Source of the DNA: Bacteroidetes bacterium HGW-Bacteroidetes-3
GTDB taxonomy: Bacteria; Bacteroidota; Bacteroidia; Flavobacteriales; Flavobacteriaceae
Direction: 5' to 3'
Length of the DNA: 46,166 nt
NCBI GenBank assembly: GCA_002842505.1
Contig: PHDE01000008.1
Location: forward strand, 1-46,166
Positions within the stretch are counted from its first letter, which is position 1, and each line of letters opens with the position of its first letter. Below, piece after piece: positions 1,526 to 10,077 of this stretch. Below the pieces are notes generated by a model. It was not told the DNA's origin. It saw only the letters and a program-made list of their open reading frames with translations, and ran no database searches. A program made the translations under genes and the position numbers.

Positions 1526-2419
1526 ATGTCTATTGAAGTAAAAAATATATCCAAATTATACGGAGAACAAAAAGCGCTGAACAACGTGAGTTTTTCCATA
1601 GAAAAAGGAGAAATTGTAGGTTTTTTAGGTCCGAATGGCGCCGGGAAATCTACGATGATGAAAATTATTTGCGGTTATATCAATGCTTCCCAAGGCGAAG
1701 TTTTCGTTAATAATTTTGATATTTCCACTCATAAAATTGATGCTCAAAAAAACATTGGATATTTGCCCGAAAACAATCCGCTTTATTTGGAAATGTATGT
1801 GCGTGAATATTTGCATTTCAACGCGTCCATTTATAAAATTGCAAAAGAAGAAGTTGAGAAAATAATTGTAAAAGTGGGTTTATCGCCTGAAGCACATAAA
1901 AAGATAAATCAGCTTTCAAAGGGTTATCGCCAGCGCGTTGGCATTGCAGCCGCTTTGTTGCACAATCCGGAAGTGTTGATTTTGGATGAACCAACTACGG
2001 GTTTGGATCCAAACCAATTGGCGGAAATAAGAAGCTTGATTAAAGAAGTGGGAAAAGACAAAACGGTACTTTTTTCAACCCATATTTTGCAGGAAGTTGA
2101 AGCTGTATGCGACCGGGTAATTTTAATTCACCACGGTGAAATTATTGCCGATAAAAAGTTAAAAGAATTCACGGAAAATAAAGAACAGGTTATTGAAGTT
2201 GAATTCGATTTTAAAATTGAAAAACAGTTTTTGGATAATATTCCGCATTTAAAATCGGCCAATAATGTGCACGATACCATTTGGGAATTGACATTTGACA
2301 CCTCAAAAGATATGCGCCCGGCCGTTTTTGATTTTGCGCACGACAACGGATTAAAAACCTTGAATTTAACCGCCAAAAACAAAAATTTGGAAAAGTTGTT
2401 TAGGGAGTTGACGGCTTAA
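1526..2419 (+). CDS. gldA: Gliding motility ABC transporter ATPase GldA
   Basis: This 297-residue protein is an ABC ATPase. It has the Walker A motif GPNGAGKST at about residues 35-43, the signature LSKGYRQRVG, the Walker B stretch VLILDEPTTGLDP and the switch-histidine motif STHILQEVE. The N-terminus (MSIEVKNISKLYGEQKALN) and overall length match GldA of flavobacteria. GldA works with the membrane proteins GldF and GldG, encoded elsewhere in these genomes, in a complex connected with gliding. The last 90 residues are a GldA-type C-terminal extension. Without its partners nearby a generic ABC-2 exporter ATPase remains possible. The gene is followed by one copy of the 51-bp duplication that brackets the restriction-modification module. 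Confidence 0.82.
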   Translation: MSIEVKNISKLYGEQKALNNVSFSIEKGEIVGFLGPNGAGKSTMMKIICGYINASQGEVFVNNFDISTHKIDAQKNIGYLPENNPLYLEMYVREYLHFNASIYKIAKEEVEKIIVKVGLSPEAHKKINQLSKGYRQRVGIAAALLHNPEVLILDEPTTGLDPNQLAEIRSLIKEVGKDKTVLFSTHILQEVEAVCDRVILIHHGEIIADKKLKEFTENKEQVIEVEFDFKIEKQFLDNIPHLKSANNVHDTIWELTFDTSKDMRPAVFDFAHDNGLKTLNLTAKNKNLEKLFRELTA

Positions 2420-2437: not shown

Positions 2438-2488
2438 AGTTTACAGTTTTCAGTGGCGGTTTTCAGAAAAATCAATTCAGTTTGAAAT
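2438..2488. repeat. 51-bp direct repeat, left copy
   Basis: Matches 4687-4737 at 49 of 51 positions in the same orientation. The final 17 bases reproduce the last codons and stop of dnaE (F-K-L-N-stop on the minus strand), with a synonymous TTC for TTT difference. This copy therefore carries a displaced dnaE tail although the gene ends 2.2 kb away. Confidence 0.92.
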
Positions 2489-2568
2489 CTCATTTTTTTT
2501 AAAACTTCGATTAATTATTATTCTTTTTCTTTTTCTGTTTATTCATTAGTTTATTTCATTTTTTCTTT

Positions 2569-2576
2569 TAAATTTG
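2569..2576 (+). promoter_or_regulatory. -7 box of the methyltransferase promoter
   Basis: TAAATTTG fits TAnnTTTG and lies 31 bases before the methyltransferase ATG at 2608. The bases TTTGTAACCATTGT overlapping its end recur exactly at 14587-14600, after another -7 box. Confidence 0.45.
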
Positions 2577-2607
2577 TAACCATTGTGTAAGGTTAAACAA
2601 TTTGGGT

Positions 2608-3846
2608 ATGAATGAATATATGACGCTTTCGGAAACTTCCGAGTATATTGGTAAAAGCAAAGAAACTTTGCGACGCTGGGATAAAGAAGGTAAACTTTCT
2701 GCTGTTCGTGAACCGATGAGCAATTATAGAGTATATAGAAAATCTGATGTTGACACCTTATTTGCTGGCTTTTTGGATACTGAAATGAAAGAAACCGTTT
2801 CAAATTTTGTTGAACCACATAATGATTACACAGTTTTAGAATTGTTCGCTGGTGCTGGCGGTTTAGCGATTGGAATGGAAAAAGCTGGTTTAAAATGCGT
2901 TGCGTTAAATGAAATTGATAAATGGGCTTGTCAAACTTTGCGAAATAATCGTCCAAATTGGAATGTATTGGAAGGAGATATAAAATCTTTTGATTTCTCC
3001 GAATATCATAATAAAGTTGATGTTGTAACAGGCGGATTCCCTTGTCAAGCATTTAGTTATGCCGGAAAAAAACTTGGTTTAGCAGATGCTCGCGGAACTT
3101 TGTTTTATGAATTTGCAAGAGCTGTAAAAGAGGTAAATCCTCCGATTTGTATTGGTGAAAATGTTCGTGGGCTGTTAAGCCACGAAAACGGAAAAACTTT
3201 ACAAGGAATGATTTCAATTTTAGATGAAATTGGTTACAATGTTGTTCCTGTTCAAGTTTTAAAAGCAATAAATTTCAATGTGCCGCAAAAACGAGAACGA
3301 TTAATTGTTGTTGGAATTAGAAAAGATATTGATTTGCAATATGAATATCCAAGACCATATAAAAAAATCTATAATTTAATAGATGCGCTAAAAAAAGGTG
3401 ATTTATATGATTGCAATGTTCCAAAATCGATTGGTTCAAAATATCCCCAAAGTAAAATTGATGTTTTGAATTTAGTTCCTCAGAAAGGCTATTGGAGAGA
3501 TTTACCATTAGATATTCAAAAAGAATTTATGGGCGGAAGCTTTCATCTTGGCGGCGGAAAAACTGGAATTGCAAGAAGAATAGGTTGGGATGAACCCTGT
3601 TTAACTTTGACTTGCAGTCCGGCACAAAAGCAAACAGAAAGATGTCATCCTGAAGAAACTAGACCATTTACTGTTAGAGAATATGCACGAATTCAAACTT
3701 TTCCTGATGTTTGGAAATTTGAAGGTTCTGTTGCGCAACAATATAAGCAAATTGGAAATGCAGTTCCTGTAAACCTAGGAAAAGAAATTGGTTATTCGAT
3801 TGTTAAATTTTTAAATACTTATTACAACTTGTCGAAACCTAAATAA
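2608..3846 (+). CDS. DNA (cytosine-5) methyltransferase with N-terminal HTH
   Basis: This is the modification enzyme of a type II restriction-modification system; it transfers methyl from S-adenosylmethionine to cytosine C5. The 412-residue protein begins with a MerR/excisionase-like helix-turn-helix (about residues 1-55, with LSETSEYIGKSKETLRRWDKEG). The C5 motifs follow in order: ELFAGAGG (I), GGFPCQAFSYAGK with the catalytic Cys (IV), GENVRGL (VI), QKRERLIVVG (VIII) and QIGNAVPVNLGKEI (X). The ATG at 2608 is preferred over a TTG two codons earlier. N-terminal HTH domains in such enzymes (M.EcoRII and M.SsoII are known cases) can repress their own operon; this is inferred here. Its last 25 bases overlap the 3' end of the convergent nuclease gene. 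By family resemblance the target may be GGNCC. Confidence 0.93.
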   Translation: MNEYMTLSETSEYIGKSKETLRRWDKEGKLSAVREPMSNYRVYRKSDVDTLFAGFLDTEMKETVSNFVEPHNDYTVLELFAGAGGLAIGMEKAGLKCVALNEIDKWACQTLRNNRPNWNVLEGDIKSFDFSEYHNKVDVVTGGFPCQAFSYAGKKLGLADARGTLFYEFARAVKEVNPPICIGENVRGLLSHENGKTLQGMISILDEIGYNVVPVQVLKAINFNVPQKRERLIVVGIRKDIDLQYEYPRPYKKIYNLIDALKKGDLYDCNVPKSIGSKYPQSKIDVLNLVPQKGYWRDLPLDIQKEFMGGSFHLGGGKTGIARRIGWDEPCLTLTCSPAQKQTERCHPEETRPFTVREYARIQTFPDVWKFEGSVAQQYKQIGNAVPVNLGKEIGYSIVKFLNTYYNLSKPK

Positions 3847-4610
3847 TAACTATAATTTTCAAAAGTAATTTGGTCTAAAATGGTTCTTTTTGAAGTTTTA
3901 GTTTCTGATTTTATTTCGTCCAATGCAGAATTTTCTTTAACAGTATCACTTTTTTCAGTTGAACTTAAATAGTCGTTGATTGCTGTTGGTAATACTTTAT
4001 ATAATTGAAAAAGCGCATTTTCTTTTCCTGAAAGTAAAGCATAAAATTGGTCTCCTGAAATTTTATAAACACGGCTATGACTATATTCTTTTCCGTTTAT
4101 ATCTCCTTTCCATAATTCACAGAAACTTCCTTTTGCAAGAATTTGAACCCAATAACATTTGGCTTTTTTGTAGTCATCAGCATAATCTCTTAATTTCTGA
4201 AATAAACTTTCTGCCGAACTGCTGTTCATCGTATTGTGCTTGTTTTTGATGTCAGCAAACAAACTGTCATCGTTCGCTTTTATGTCAAAACCACTTAAAT
4301 TCCCAATTTGAAAACCATTAATTCCGCCTAAAATTTGCTCGTGAAAAGTTCCTATGGAGTTGTTTATTGATTTGTCAATTTGGCGCAATATTTCGGCTTG
4401 AATTAAATTTTCTTGATTAATATCGTTGAATTGTGCGTCAAAAGTCAATTTTAGGGTATCAACTTTGTTGCTGTAAAAGTTTTTTTTCGTGATATTGTTC
4501 TTGGCTTTTAAATATGCTTTGTGAAGATTTTCAATGCAGTTTAATAAATGTTCATCCGAAATAAAGTCAACATATTTATTTTTCATCCAATTTTGGTCGT
4601 TATAATTCAA
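3822..4610 (-). CDS. Type II restriction endonuclease, Eco47II/Sau96I-like
   Basis: This 262-residue protein is encoded convergently with the C5 methyltransferase and is its cognate nuclease by position. The central part resembles the Eco47II family, whose members cut GGNCC: GTFHEQILGGINGF, then GFDIKANDDSLFADIKNKHN and NTMNSSSAESLFQKL. A PD-(D/E)xK-type core can be read as the Asp of GFDIK or NDD followed by ADIK. Assignment to this family rests on recalled motif resemblance, so the specificity is tentative. The start at 4608-4610 is TTG; an ATG lies eight codons in. The last 25 bases overlap the methyltransferase C-terminal codons, so both C-termini are written on opposite strands of one segment. 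Confidence 0.78.
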   Translation of the reverse strand: MNYNDQNWMKNKYVDFISDEHLLNCIENLHKAYLKAKNNITKKNFYSNKVDTLKLTFDAQFNDINQENLIQAEILRQIDKSINNSIGTFHEQILGGINGFQIGNLSGFDIKANDDSLFADIKNKHNTMNSSSAESLFQKLRDYADDYKKAKCYWVQILAKGSFCELWKGDINGKEYSHSRVYKISGDQFYALLSGKENALFQLYKVLPTAINDYLSSTEKSDTVKENSALDEIKSETKTSKRTILDQITFENYSYYLGFDKL

Positions 4611-4686
4611 TGCCTAAATTAACACTTTTTATTGAATTTTTTTCGATGTTTGTATTCAGCATTTTATTTGAATAGTTTCCATCAAT

Positions 4687-4737
4687 AGTTTACAGTTTTC
4701 AGTGGCAGTTTTCAGAAAAATCAATTCAGTTTAAAAT
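4687..4737. repeat. 51-bp direct repeat, right copy
   Basis: The native copy of the duplication: its last 17 bases are the real 3' end of dnaE. With 2438-2488 it brackets a 2.2-kb interval that contains only the methyltransferase and nuclease genes. Confidence 0.92.
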
Positions 4738-7700
4738 GGATTTCTTCATTTTTCAGCAATTTTAAAAAATCATTGTCTACGTTCACTTTTACCGACCTGC
4801 TGTGTAAATTTAGGCTTGTGTTTTCCGGCAAATCATAAACGATAAAATCTACCGGAACAGTGCCTTCGTTTTCTTTCAGAATTTTATGGATTTCTTTAAT
4901 CCTGTTCTCGGTTAAATTATTAATGTCTAGGCTAATGGTTATTTTTTTAGTTTGTTTTTCCAGCACATCCTGCAAAATTTGAATGTCGGTAAAATTCACT
5001 CTGGGCTCACCCAATTTACCGTCTTTATTTCTCCATCCCGCAGTGACAGAAACCCTGATTTGGCGAAAAGCGTCTTCAAACAAATAAGGCTTAAACTTTA
5101 AATAATCGTCTTTAAAAATTCTAAACTCGTGGCTGTCACTATAATCTACTACCACAAAAGAGCCCCATTCATTCCCGTTTTGGGAAGTTTTGTGTTGCAC
5201 ATCGGTTAAAATTCCCGAAAAAGTCATTGTGGAGCCTACATATTTATTGAGATCCTCTTTAAAAACAGCAACAGAAGCATTGCAGAAATAGTCAATTTCA
5301 TTTCTAAACTCATCCAATGGATGACCGGAAATATAAATGCCTACCATTTCTTTTTCTCGGGATAATTTATACATCATTCCCCATTTTTCAGCAGAAGGAA
5401 TTTCAGGTTCCGGAAATTGAATTTCAGAAGCTTCCCCAAAAAGTGAAACTTGGGCAGAATTTTTATTTTCCTGGAATTTGCTTCCGTAACGAATAACGCG
5501 TTCGATAAAAGAAACGCCCTTTTCGTCGGGTTGGTAATATTGTGCGCGGTGCACATTTGTGAAAGAATCAAATCCGCCCGCCATCGCCAATCCGTCGAAA
5601 GCTTTTTTGGTCGCTGCACGCAAATCTATGCGTTTGGTTAAATCGAAAATAGAGGAATAATTGCCGTTTTTTTTGCGTTCCTCAACAATGGCGGCAACGG
5701 CTGATGCGCCAACGCCTTTTATGGCACCCATTCCAAAACGAATGGCACCTTCTTTATTTACGGCAAATTTGTAAAATGATTCATTAATGTCTGGCCCCAA
5801 AACTTTGATGCCCGCTCTTTTGCATTCTTCCATAAAAAAGGAAATTTGCTTAATGTCGCTCATATTATTCGACAAAACCGCAGCCATAAATTCCGCAGGA
5901 TAATTGGCTTTTAAATAAGCGGTTTGGAAAGCGATATAGGCGTAACAAGTGGAGTGCGACTTGTTAAAAGCATATTCGGCAAAAGCTTCCCAATCTTTCC
6001 ATATTTTTTCCAAAACGGGTTCGGGGTGGTTGTTTGCTTTTCCGCCTTTTATAAATTGAGGTTTCAATTTTACCAACAATTCCAAAATCTTTTTCCCCAT
6101 CGCTTTACGCAACATATCTGCTTCACCTCTTGTAAAACCAGCTATTTTTTGGGAAAGCAACATCACCTGTTCCTGGTAAACGGTAACGCCGTAAGTTTCC
6201 TTTAAAATTTCCTCCATCACCGGCAAGTCATATTCAATGGCTTCTTCCCCGTGTTTACGCATAATAAACAAAGGAATGTATTCCATCGGGCCTGGACGGT
6301 ACAAGGCGTTCATCGCAATTAAATCGGCAAATTGGGTTGGTTTCAATGCTTTTAAATGCTTTTGCATTCCAAAAGATTCATATTGAAATATTCCTACCGT
6401 TTCTCCGCGCTGAAAAAGTTCATAAGTTTTGGGATCGTCCAACGGAAAATCATCAGGAACCAACTCAATGCCGTGTTTTCCTTTGATAATTTTTAGGGTG
6501 TCTTTAATTAAAGACAAGGTTTTCAATCCTAAAAAGTCCATTTTTAGCAAGCCGGCGCTTTCAACCACATTATTGTCGAATTGCGTCACATACATATCGG
6601 TATCTTTCGCCGTGGCAACCGGAATTAAATTGGTGATATTTTCTGGCGTAATGATGACGCCGCAAGCGTGGGTTCCTGTATTTCTCAAGGAGCCTTCCAA
6701 AGCGCGTGCCTGATTGATGGTTTGCGCCGCTAAGTCGTCGCCGGCAGCGATTCTTCTAAGTTCATTTACGTTGTCTAATTCTTCGCTCCTTAGACCTTTA
6801 ATGATTGCTTTGCTTTTTTCGTCTTCGCCAAAAATATTTTTTAGCTTTACCAGCGGAATCAATTTTGCGATTCTGTCGGCATCAAACAAAGGCAAATCGA
6901 GCACGCGCGCCGTATCTCTTATGGAAGATTTTGCCGCCATCGTTCCGTAAGTGATAATTTGCGCCACTTGGCTTGCGCCGTATTTATTGATTACGAAATC
7001 GATGACTTTTTGTCGGCCTTCGTCATCAAAATCAATATCGATATCGGGCAATGAAACCCGATCCGGATTTAAGAAACGTTCAAAAAGTAAATCGTATTTT
7101 ATGGGGTCAATATTGGTGATCCACAAACAATAAGCCACTACGGAACCCGCCGCCGAACCCCGTCCGGGACCAACAGAGACACCCATTTTACGCGCTTCCA
7201 AAATAAAATCCCAAACAATTAAAAAGTAGCCGGGATAACCTGTTTTTTTTATAACCGACAATTCAAAATCGAGCCGTTCAATGAGGTCATCCGCCAATAT
7301 TTCGCCATATCTTTTTTTGGCGCCTTCATAAGTCAAATGTCGCAAATAGGCGTTTTCACCTCTTACGCCACCGTCTATTGCGTCTTCCGGATTTACAAAT
7401 TCCTGCGGAATGGCAAATTTTGGAAGCAGCACGTTGCGCGCCAAGGTATAAATTTCAATTTTATCAACAATTTCCTGAATATTGGTGATGGCTTCGGGCA
7501 AATCGGCGAACAAACTTTTCATTTGTTCCTGACTTTTGAAATAATATTCGTTATTTGGCAAACCGTACCTAAAACCCCTGCCTTTTCCTATGGGTGTGGC
7601 TATTTTTTCGCCATCTTTTACGCACAATAAAATGTCGTGCGCCGTTGATTCTTCTTGTTTTGTGTAGTAAGTATTGTTTGAAGCGATTAATTTTACTTGG

Positions 7701-9097
7701 TGTTTTTTTGAAAATTCAACCAGCACTTCGTTCACGTGATTTTCATTTTCCTGATCGTGGCGCATCACTTCCAAATAAAAATCGTCCCCAAATTGTTCCT
7801 GCCACCAAAGCAGCGCTTCTTCCGCCTGTTTTTCGCCAACATTTAAAATCTTGCTCGGTATTTCCCCAAACAAATTTCCCGAAAGCACCATCAAACCTTC
7901 TTTGTATTGTTCAATAATATTTTTATCGATTCGGGGAATGTAATAAAATCCATCGGTATTGGAAATCGACGACATTTTGGCGAGATTGTGATAGCCAGTT
8001 TTGTTTTTTGCCAAAATAACAATGTGGTAGCCGTTGTCTTTTTGCGATTTGTCCGCGTGATTTTCGCACACATAAAACTCACAGCCTAAAATGGGTTTTA
8101 GGGGAAGTTTTGCTTCCTGTCCTTCCGCTAAATTTTTATTGAAATTTTCAACAGACTTGTTATAATCCAGCGTTTCTTTTATGAAGTAAAAAGCGCCCAT
8201 CATATTTCCGGTGTCGGTTAAGGCAACCGCCGGCATTTTATCTTTTATGGCAGATTGAATGAGGTTGCTTACACTGGAAGTTGACTGTAATATGGAAAAT
8301 TGTGAATGGCAATGCAAATGCGCAAAATTGGCATTTTCAAGGACTTTAGAAGTGCCTTTAACCTGCGTTATTTCTTCAGAATTTTCTTCTGATTTTGTTT
8401 TTAATTTCTTGCTTTCTTTTTTTAGGTCGATGTGTTTTAGGCCAATAACATCAATAATAGCTGGATTTTTAGCTTCAAACGTTTCAAAATAATCCGAAGA
8501 AACATTGAGTTCTTCTTTTGTAAAAACTCGTTTTCTGATCAATTCCAAAAAACAGCGCGTGGTGGCTTCCACATCGGCGGTTGCGTTGTGCGCTTCACCA
8601 AAAGGCGCATTAAATAAATATTGGTGCAGTTCGGTTAAGGTTGGATATTTGAATTTTCCGCCACGTCCGCCTTTTATCTGACATAAATTTGCCGTAATTT
8701 CAGTACAAGTGTCCAAAACCGGCAAATCATTTAAATTAGTCGCCAATTCCATTCTGTGAAATTCACAACCCATAATATTTAGGTCGAATTTTACATTTTG
8801 TCCAACAACAAAGGTAGATTTCGCAAGCACTTCATTAAAAAGTCGCAAAACAGTTTCTAAATCTTCGCCTTTTTCTTCCGCCAACTGGGTTGAAATTCCG
8901 TGAACTTGTTCAACATCATACGGAATATTATAACCTTCCGGTTTGATCAGAAAATCTTTTTGTTCAATTAATTCTCCATACTTGTCGTGCAGTTGCCACG
9001 CAATTTGAACACACCTTGGCCAGTTGTCAATGTCGGTAAATGGGGCATTCCAATTTTTAGGTAAACCGGTGGTTTCTGTATCAAAAATTAAAAACAT
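4721..9097 (-). CDS. dnaE: DNA polymerase III alpha subunit with fused N-terminal exonuclease
   Basis: The replicative polymerase catalytic subunit, 1458 residues. The first 200 or so residues are a DnaQ-type 3'-5' proofreading exonuclease: DTETT (ExoI), NVKFDLNIM (ExoII) and HNATADVEAT (ExoIII). A PHP domain follows from about residue 255 (FAHLHCHSQFS, later ALTDTGNMMGAF). Then comes the C-family polymerase core with GPGRGSAAGS and the catalytic PDIDIDFDDEGRQ, helix-hairpin-helix and YISGHPLDEF segments, and a C-terminal OB fold (MTFSGILTDV). The exonuclease-polymerase fusion is typical of Bacteroidota. In the PHP domain the second motif reads TDTGNM where active PHP domains usually have TDHGN. 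The gene is intact; its last codons lie in the 51-bp duplication. Confidence 0.97.
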   Translation of the reverse strand: MFLIFDTETTGLPKNWNAPFTDIDNWPRCVQIAWQLHDKYGELIEQKDFLIKPEGYNIPYDVEQVHGISTQLAEEKGEDLETVLRLFNEVLAKSTFVVGQNVKFDLNIMGCEFHRMELATNLNDLPVLDTCTEITANLCQIKGGRGGKFKYPTLTELHQYLFNAPFGEAHNATADVEATTRCFLELIRKRVFTKEELNVSSDYFETFEAKNPAIIDVIGLKHIDLKKESKKLKTKSEENSEEITQVKGTSKVLENANFAHLHCHSQFSILQSTSSVSNLIQSAIKDKMPAVALTDTGNMMGAFYFIKETLDYNKSVENFNKNLAEGQEAKLPLKPILGCEFYVCENHADKSQKDNGYHIVILAKNKTGYHNLAKMSSISNTDGFYYIPRIDKNIIEQYKEGLMVLSGNLFGEIPSKILNVGEKQAEEALLWWQEQFGDDFYLEVMRHDQENENHVNEVLVEFSKKHQVKLIASNNTYYTKQEESTAHDILLCVKDGEKIATPIGKGRGFRYGLPNNEYYFKSQEQMKSLFADLPEAITNIQEIVDKIEIYTLARNVLLPKFAIPQEFVNPEDAIDGGVRGENAYLRHLTYEGAKKRYGEILADDLIERLDFELSVIKKTGYPGYFLIVWDFILEARKMGVSVGPGRGSAAGSVVAYCLWITNIDPIKYDLLFERFLNPDRVSLPDIDIDFDDEGRQKVIDFVINKYGASQVAQIITYGTMAAKSSIRDTARVLDLPLFDADRIAKLIPLVKLKNIFGEDEKSKAIIKGLRSEELDNVNELRRIAAGDDLAAQTINQARALEGSLRNTGTHACGVIITPENITNLIPVATAKDTDMYVTQFDNNVVESAGLLKMDFLGLKTLSLIKDTLKIIKGKHGIELVPDDFPLDDPKTYELFQRGETVGIFQYESFGMQKHLKALKPTQFADLIAMNALYRPGPMEYIPLFIMRKHGEEAIEYDLPVMEEILKETYGVTVYQEQVMLLSQKIAGFTRGEADMLRKAMGKKILELLVKLKPQFIKGGKANNHPEPVLEKIWKDWEAFAEYAFNKSHSTCYAYIAFQTAYLKANYPAEFMAAVLSNNMSDIKQISFFMEECKRAGIKVLGPDINESFYKFAVNKEGAIRFGMGAIKGVGASAVAAIVEERKKNGNYSSIFDLTKRIDLRAATKKAFDGLAMAGGFDSFTNVHRAQYYQPDEKGVSFIERVIRYGSKFQENKNSAQVSLFGEASEIQFPEPEIPSAEKWGMMYKLSREKEMVGIYISGHPLDEFRNEIDYFCNASVAVFKEDLNKYVGSTMTFSGILTDVQHKTSQNGNEWGSFVVVDYSDSHEFRIFKDDYLKFKPYLFEDAFRQIRVSVTAGWRNKDGKLGEPRVNFTDIQILQDVLEKQTKKITISLDINNLTENRIKEIHKILKENEGTVPVDFIVYDLPENTSLNLHSRSVKVNVDNDFLKLLKNEEIHFKLN

Positions 9098-9492
9098 TTG
9101 GCTGAATTTTTTGCTTATAAATGAGTTTTTAAAAGTAACAATTTAATAAATTTTACACTTCCATACTTGCATTTTTTTATTAACAATCCTAAATTTTTCT
9201 TAAATGTTTAACGGAAACATAGAAAGCCAAATGACTTCCTACAGAAACCCATAAAATAGTGCAGAAAACATAAAAGTTAGCCAATATTTGGATTGAAAGA
9301 AAGCCAAATGCCAATCCAAATTACTATTTTTGGTCACAAATTTACCTATGAAAGTGCTTTTGATATTGGTGTTTTTGGGATTTAAAAGATTGGAGTAAAA
9401 TATGCTGAAAATGCGCGTATTATTTGAAATTATCTTATTATATTTGCAACCCTAATTAATAACCAAGGTTTCGTACCTTAAAATTTAAAAAT
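9098..9492. other. Intergenic region between dnaE and rpsP
   Basis: A divergent promoter region of about 395 bp with no credible gene. It holds a possible hairpin (TTGGATTG near 9290 with CAATCCAA near 9313) and a short duplicated AGAAAGCCAAATG near 9220 and 9298. The rpsP -7 box is near the right end. Confidence 0.5.
9439..9446 (+). promoter_or_regulatory. -7 box of the rpsP promoter
   Basis: TATATTTG is a perfect TAnnTTTG box 46 bases before the rpsP ATG. A TTTG lies upstream but with a shorter gap than the usual -33/-7 spacing. Confidence 0.5.
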
Positions 9493-10077
9493 ATGCCAGT
9501 AAAAATTAGATTACAAAGACACGGTAAAAAAGGAAAACCATTTTATTGGATTGTGGCTGCAGATGTGCGCTCAACAAGAGACGGTAAGTATTTAGAAAAA
9601 ATTGGAACTTACAATCCAAACACAAATCCAGCAACGATCGACTTAGATGTTAATGGCGCTGTAAAATGGTTGCAAAACGGAGCGCAACCAACAGACACTG
9701 CAAAAGCAATTTTATCATATAAAGGCGCTTTGCTAAAAAACCATTTAGCAGGCGGTATTAAAAAAGGAGCTTTAACAGAAGAACAAGCTGAAGCAAAATT
9801 TCAAGCTTGGGTTGATGAAAAAGCAGGAAAAATTGACGCTAAAAAACAAGGCTTGGCAAAAGCGGAAACTGATGCCATCGCCAAAGCTTTTGAAGCTGAA
9901 GTAAAAGTAAATGAAGAGCGTAAAGCTGCTGCAAACGAAGCTGTAAATGCTGCTGTTAAAGCAGAAGCTGATAAAAAAGATGCTGAAAAAGCCGCTAAAG
10001 AAGTAGTGGTTAAAGAAGCTCCTGAAACCATTGATGACGCACAAGCTGCAGCTTCAGAAGAAGGAAAAAACGAGTAA
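9493..10077 (+). CDS. rpsP: 30S ribosomal protein S16 with long C-terminal tail
   Basis: S16 binds 16S rRNA and is needed for 30S assembly. Residues 1-80 are the conserved core (MPVKIRLQRHGKKGKPFYWIV, then SAR-like RSTRDGKYLEKIGTYNPNT). The protein is 194 residues, more than twice the E. coli length, because of an Ala/Lys/Glu-rich, probably helical or disordered tail from about residue 90. Such extensions are usual in Bacteroidota. rimM follows after 15 bases, the classic rpsP-rimM pairing. Confidence 0.97.
   Translation: MPVKIRLQRHGKKGKPFYWIVAADVRSTRDGKYLEKIGTYNPNTNPATIDLDVNGAVKWLQNGAQPTDTAKAILSYKGALLKNHLAGGIKKGALTEEQAEAKFQAWVDEKAGKIDAKKQGLAKAETDAIAKAFEAEVKVNEERKAAANEAVNAAVKAEADKKDAEKAAKEVVVKEAPETIDDAQAAASEEGKNE

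Follow-up and report, generated by a model that had tools for sequence, protein, structure and literature searches.

Long target duplications are the chief evidence that bare restriction-modification (R-M) gene pairs are mobile. Some R-M systems are described as inserting with long target duplications, variable in length and of around 100 bp (PMC3874152), the same insertion pattern with long target duplications is described for H. pylori (PMC3031569, PMC1643837), and R-M insertion with a long target duplication is attributed to Nobusato 2000 and Furuta 2010. In H. pylori and E. coli, TnPZ and R-M elements linked to IS also combine R-M or methylase genes with target repeats; these elements have recombinase or IS genes and duplications of 4 to 10 bp (PMC2731543, PMC3031569), and the locus analyzed here has neither. 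This locus consists of R-M genes without a recombinase gene, with long direct target repeats at both ends, and we filed it under known R-M insertion with long target duplication because the published descriptions match it (PMC3874152, PMC3031569, PMC1643837). It differs from the described cases in that the host belongs to the Bacteroidota, the repeats measure 51 bp and, in a second case, 112 bp, and the duplicated piece ends in the 3' tail of a gene. Moreover, several species share the slot, and the repeat appears to be of more recent date than the module's arrival.

The window, by which we mean the whole stretch of DNA analyzed (46,166 nucleotides), comprises positions 1 to 46,166 of contig PHDE01000008.1 in assembly GCA_002842505.1 of Bacteroidetes bacterium HGW-Bacteroidetes-3. 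This genome (G000, 270 contigs) is placed among Lutibacter, and its nearest named loci by dnaE are mostly from Lutibacter sp. MAGs. The features around the inserted unit are collected in Table 1.

Table 1. Features of the gldA-dnaE region in the window
Feature	Position	Strand	Basis or remark
gldA, left neighbor	1526..2419	+	TIGR03522 GldA 452.7 bits, cut-off 402.6; 3' end toward module
Repeat, left copy	2438..2488	+	last 17 bases are a dnaE-tail copy, dnaE frame absent; 49/51 vs right copy
Inserted unit	2489..4686	.	bounded by the two repeat copies
Operator-like inverted repeat TAACCA-N20-TGGTTA	2577..2608	+	at MTase start; window right arm is TGGGTA
m5C methyltransferase (MTase)	2608..3846	+	PF00145 E 2.1e-83
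MTase N-terminal MerR/HTH_17-like domain	within 2608..3846	+	PF13411 E 4.2e-7; PF12728 E 4e-6
Eco47II-family restriction endonuclease (REase)	3822..4610	-	PF09553 E 2.3e-84
Repeat, right copy	4687..4737	+	4721-4737 are the final 17 bases of dnaE
dnaE, right neighbor	4721..9097	-	NF004226 and TIGR00594 above cut-off; 3' end toward module; ends HFKLN-stop

The REase is convergent with the MTase, and their 3' ends overlap. Given that a PF09553 REase lies beside an m5C MTase, we assigned the pair to the Eco47II family of type II R-M systems. It shares both gene families with that system, as well as the convergent arrangement found in 24 loci, and nothing notable sets it apart in this comparison. 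Eco47II has the specificity GGNCC. GGNCC is not avoided in the window (34 sites observed, 32.8 expected), a count that is uninformative on specificity. The MTase probably starts at ATG 2608 (the listed ORF opens at TTG 2602), and the REase may start at ATG 4586, where the protein would begin MKNKY, matching the start of the L172 ORF. The TAACC arm of the operator-like inverted repeat is present in 25 of 25 loci (the window and 24 others), and the full TAACCA-N20-TGGTTA is present in 24 of them, the exception being the window. Together with the helix-turn-helix domain of the MTase, this inverted repeat suggests self-regulation, which would be useful on entry to a new host. By blastn against loci of other genera, leaving aside L170 and L153 where matches were split or partial, the stretch of the window that resembles them runs from about 2474-2569 to about 4549-4656. 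Outside the unit, an exonuclease domain at the N-terminus of the window dnaE (4721-9097; PF00929, residues 3-182) precedes the PHP domain, and a 28-base inverted repeat lies upstream of gldA (1144-1171 and 1450-1477, 93% complementary).

A preliminary description of this DNA had reported a direct repeat identical at 49 of 51 positions, a right copy that contains the last 17 bases of dnaE, a left copy that repeats these codons with a synonymous difference where there is no dnaE frame, only methyltransferase and nuclease genes between the copies, and no transposase. Recomparison of 2438-2488 with 4687-4737 and the extent of dnaE (4721-9097) bear out each of these observations: the left copy's 17-base tail has one difference from the right copy, which would be synonymous, and the unit holds the two R-M genes alone, apart from short mechanical ORFs that overlap them. 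Neither the ORF list nor the profile search revealed a transposase, integrase, or other recombinase gene in the unit, or an IS flanking it. Extended to 2435-2488 and 4684-4737, the repeat is identical at 51 of 54 positions, in exact runs of 2, 20, 25, and 4 bases. The left and right flanks align with a score of 45, which none of 200 dinucleotide shuffles attains, and under another scoring with 50.5, attained by none of 1000. The 28-base core occurs at only two places in G000, with three or fewer mismatches allowed. A 301-base query finds just the two copies at E <= 0.001 (40 of 129 first-look candidates scored), and the extra matches of a 62-base query at E <= 10 are weak and partial (24 of 35 candidates scored); across the genome, where further copies had been thought worth looking for, no unrelated copy of the 51-mer exists in full. 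The shuffles and the uniqueness of the core rule out a chance repeat. Because the copies carry mismatches, an exact-k-mer assembly artifact is unlikely as well.

We compared the gldA-dnaE slot in the window with that in ten relatives whose gldA is at least 87.5% identical (11 genomes in total). An MTase occupies the slot in five genomes, a Fic gene and an REase scrap occupy it in one, and it is empty in the remaining five. The MTase-bearing slots are those of the window, L084 (genome G005), L087 (G021), L088 (G001), and L097 (G023), so the slot is not peculiar to this genome; a fifth relative, L085 (G004), retains a scrap of the REase. The REase of G005 contains one in-frame TAG. The gldA-dnaE interval is a small turnover slot: in L097 the Eco47II REase is reduced to a 79-bp scrap (87%), and beside the Eco47II MTase lie a TdeIII-type REase (PF09520) and a second m5C MTase, and in L085 a Fic gene (PF02661) accompanies a 41-bp REase scrap (80%, E 3.9e-5). 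In the empty slots, which account for 5 of the 10 relatives, gldA and dnaE are convergent, there is one dnaE tail, and the distance from the end of gldA to the end of dnaE is 21 bp in L086, 36 bp in L089, 35 bp in L090, 96 bp in L091, and 21 bp in L092. Two farther relatives, L095 and L100, are also empty (22 and 16 bp), and six others (L093, L094, L096, L098, L099, and L101) have 2.97 to 3.18 kb of other sequence between gldA and dnaE. In L098, this interval (6982-9973) contains three ORFs of 366, 368, and 260 aa.

These empty slots support the preliminary claim that the module was inserted between gldA and dnaE, and no module-less relative with two copies of the repeat was seen. The empty junction had been expected to carry a single copy of the 51-mer. 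Of this sequence, all five empty close relatives (5 of 5) have just the dnaE tail, in one copy; the remaining 34 bp, the half outside dnaE, appear in none of the five spacers. No occupied slot other than the window's has the 34-bp half on both sides; a version of it flanks the module in G021, though just on the left (84% over 50), and it is absent from the right flanks of G001, G021, G023, and G004.

Apparent traces of the dnaE tail are present left of the module in other species. We aligned the left flanks of G001, G021, and G023 by MAFFT without the window row and compared the fit of the majority dnaE tail of the empty sites with that of random 17-mers. The tail fits the three flanks jointly at one alignment column, a fit equaled at any column by 115 of 20000 random 17-mers and at the shared column by 0 of 92298; in a five-way alignment, this column is where the window's left tail copy falls. 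With the window's own tail as the query, the corresponding counts were 2729 of 20000 and 64 of 92298. Taken singly, the relics are non-significant (equaled by 1142 to 2414 of 4000 random 17-mers), and there is no such relic in the left flank of G005. When left flanks were compared with their own right flanks, the other Lutibacter slots gave no match beyond chance (110 to 432 of 1000 shuffles). The left flank of G023 aligns with the entire empty spacer of L091, and the alignment extends to the dnaE tail (score 43.5; 300 shuffles gave at most 30). Among 30 comparisons of right flanks with empty spacers, G023-L090 was equaled by 0 of 300 shuffles and G004-L091 by 1 of 300, and most were non-significant. 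On these alignments there is a moderate case, short of proof, that the sequences left of the module in G001, G021, and G023 are the decayed remains of an old target duplication; the alignment is open to eye bias, which we counted against our best explanation. The putative dnaE-tail relics in three relatives suggest that a target duplication predates the window lineage, so that the near-perfect repeat of the window (49/51) may be a renewal rather than the scar of the first insertion. The two window copies differ at 2 of 51 positions, and the left copies of the window and G021 differ at 10 of 51 (p 0.028).

The modules themselves have a history within the slot. The five Lutibacter-slot MTases form one clade relative to 11 modules from other loci with 99% support in the MTase nucleotide tree, and the slot clade has 100% support for the four modules with both genes, 97% for REase nucleotides, and 75% for REase protein (modules L224-L231 and L235 were left out of these trees). 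The MTase and dnaE data each reject the topology of the other (AU p 0.0035 for the dnaE topology on the MTase data); the window's position in the dnaE tree, close to the base of the inner group, is weakly supported (45). At fourfold sites, the window and L088 are identical at 111 of 148 positions in the MTase and 277 of 479 in dnaE (p 1.5e-4, uncorrected, 10 pairs tested). The MTase of G023 is nearer to all four other slot MTases than its dnaE would predict (p 0.0014 to 0.015). These excesses, combined with the conflict between the MTase and dnaE trees, indicate that the module passed between species within the slot. The REase shows no excess similarity between the window and L088 (63.3% of 60 sites), which we also counted against our best explanation.

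That explanation, which we favor with moderate confidence, is a joint account of ancestral insertion with tail duplication, later loss, replacement, and exchange, and renewal of the repeat in the window lineage. An ancestor of this Lutibacter group would have acquired an Eco47II-type R-M pair between gldA and dnaE, in an event that duplicated a target with the last bases of dnaE and left dnaE intact on the right and a useless tail copy on the left. The repeat, the empty and occupied slots, the scraps, and the tree conflict are observed; a single ancestral insertion, the tail relics, and the renewal with its route are deduced from them. Insertion in the end of a gene is presumably tolerated only if the gene stays whole, so there would be selection for duplications that include the stop codon. 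Afterwards, this slot would have seen the unit lost, scrapped, replaced, and exchanged among species; if the two copies recombined, the module would be deleted and the slot emptied. Later recombination between the repeat copies in the window lineage could have re-made their near-identity over 51 bp, by gene conversion or by loss of the module and its return through the tail homology.

A second case comes from another genus. We searched for direct repeats at the flanks of 24 loci with a convergent MTase-REase pair (15 + 9). L153, L232, L233, L234, L236, L237, and L238 were left out for want of a convergent MTase, and L097 was left out of the first 15-locus set because its REase is a scrap. Near-perfect long flanking repeats occur at 2 of the 24 loci: the window (49/51) and L172 (110/112), the latter from G247 of genus g211 in the same family. 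The 112-bp direct repeat of L172 (about 3229-3340 and 5449-5560) surrounds a homologous R-M pair and contains the last 34 codons and the stop codon of a gene for a 60-aa Cys-rich protein, which is intact on the REase side. In G414, also of genus g211, the module adjoins the same gene as in G247, without the left copy. Four of five trees join the L172 and L174 modules (G247 and G414) as sisters: those built from nucleotides of the MTase (78) and of the REase (95), from REase protein (94), and from the joint data (98). The tree of MTase proteins does not; shared descent of the slot is therefore likely, not certain. The same gene is 76% identical between G247 and G414 over 104 bp, and the two copies within G247 are alike at 110 of 112 positions, so this repeat too looks younger than the module's stay, provided that the slot is shared by descent. 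No empty site was found for G247, the two genomes compared from its genus both being occupied, and the left neighbor gene of its module was not seen at any other locus compared. This independent case supports the preliminary proposal that the module is an insertion, but the relics suggest that the 49/51 repeat itself may have been renewed. Two other candidates were set aside: a 26-bp match at L227 (score 17, 0 of 100 shuffles), which we did not take as a flanking repeat, its distance from the genes being 427 and 376 bp, and a diverged repeat of ~140 bp around the pair at L230 (G886), with a third copy elsewhere (contig C11, 80%), which was not counted as a target duplication. The L230 repeat is perhaps a cassette-like or dispersed element.

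The REase is patchily distributed. It was detected in 7 of 38 genus genomes including the window's own, with the copies of G019 and G016 lying outside the slot, and in 16 of 397 family genomes including the window's own, from 13 of 237 genera. Beyond the family, it was found in 13 of 395 order-sample genomes and, by Pfam profile, in 6 of 395 phylum-sample genomes and 0 of 14 controls. Among 72,556 plasmid records there were 10 REase matches, every one at <60% identity, and among 50,697 phage records there were none; these plasmid and phage records thus yielded no vector.

Among the alternatives to the joint account, a fresh insertion is the most serious, although we consider it unlikely. In this scenario, the empty slot of the window's ancestor had the spacer GTTTACAG...AGAAAAA beside the dnaE tail, the module duplicated 51 bp of target on arrival, and the relatives' modules are other, older arrivals. 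One event would then account for the two halves of the repeat together. Judged by dnaE fourfold sites, the relatives closest to the window (L092, 66.5%) have empty slots, the window and L088 are closer in the MTase than in the chromosome, and the G021 left flank would represent a related spacer. The 12-mer to the left of the left copy, TTTTCAGCAAAA, also matches the right end of the module at 11 of 12 positions in G001, 10 of 12 in G021, and 10 of 12 in G004, as expected if short homology guides the ends. This 12-mer was picked after the data were seen, however; it matches the window's own right flank at 9 of 12 positions, and 26 of 46154 window 12-mers reach 10. Short homology may have guided both module ends, or an older duplication may have exceeded 51 bp, with 51 bp later homogenized. 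Against a fresh insertion, none of the empty sites examined has the 51-mer, the slot modules form one clade, and a precise mechanism would be needed for the module ends and the position of the cut in the dnaE tail to coincide across several species.

It is quite improbable that homologous exchange through gldA and dnaE moved occupied and empty alleles between species and that slippage or illegitimate recombination, unrelated to insertion, produced the repeat afterwards. Trees of lipB+gldA and of dnaE do conflict across the slot (L085+L090 with support of 100 in the former, L087+L090 with 100 and L085+L088 with 80 in the latter), which indicates that the flanks recombine between species. Exchange of this kind nevertheless leaves unexplained why the 3' end of a gene is duplicated at the module's edge, both here and in G247 (112 bp). 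Least probable is that a dispersed intergenic repeat flanks the module by coincidence: the 34-bp half does resemble a loose dispersed intergenic CAGTTTTCAG-type motif (82-92% over 20-28 bases on G000 contigs C50, C73, and C170), and the G886 pair has its diverged repeat with a copy on another contig, but the two-site core and the extension of the 51-mer into dnaE coding sequence rule this out for the 51-mer and leave it as a partial truth for the 34-bp half. On contig C52 of G015 (about 8947-9410), matches to the left-copy query (84-100%) form an array, a tandem form of the CAGTTTTCAG-type motif.

Under the joint account, the locus is possibly a new twist on a known pattern, in which the repeat is renewed long after entry. 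A single slot in about a dozen close species is found empty, occupied, scrapped, replaced, and repeat-bearing, with a parallel case in another genus, and this series of states lets one ask whether a repeat marks the time of insertion or owes its state to later renewal by recombination. A bolder extension, which we put forward tentatively and regard as doubtful, is that gene-tail repeats serve as recombinase-free attachment sites: recombination between the tail copies would let the R-M pair leave and re-enter one slot, with the repeat renewed at each re-entry, both here and in g211. If this is true, a near-perfect long target duplication would date the last return of an R-M pair, not its first arrival.
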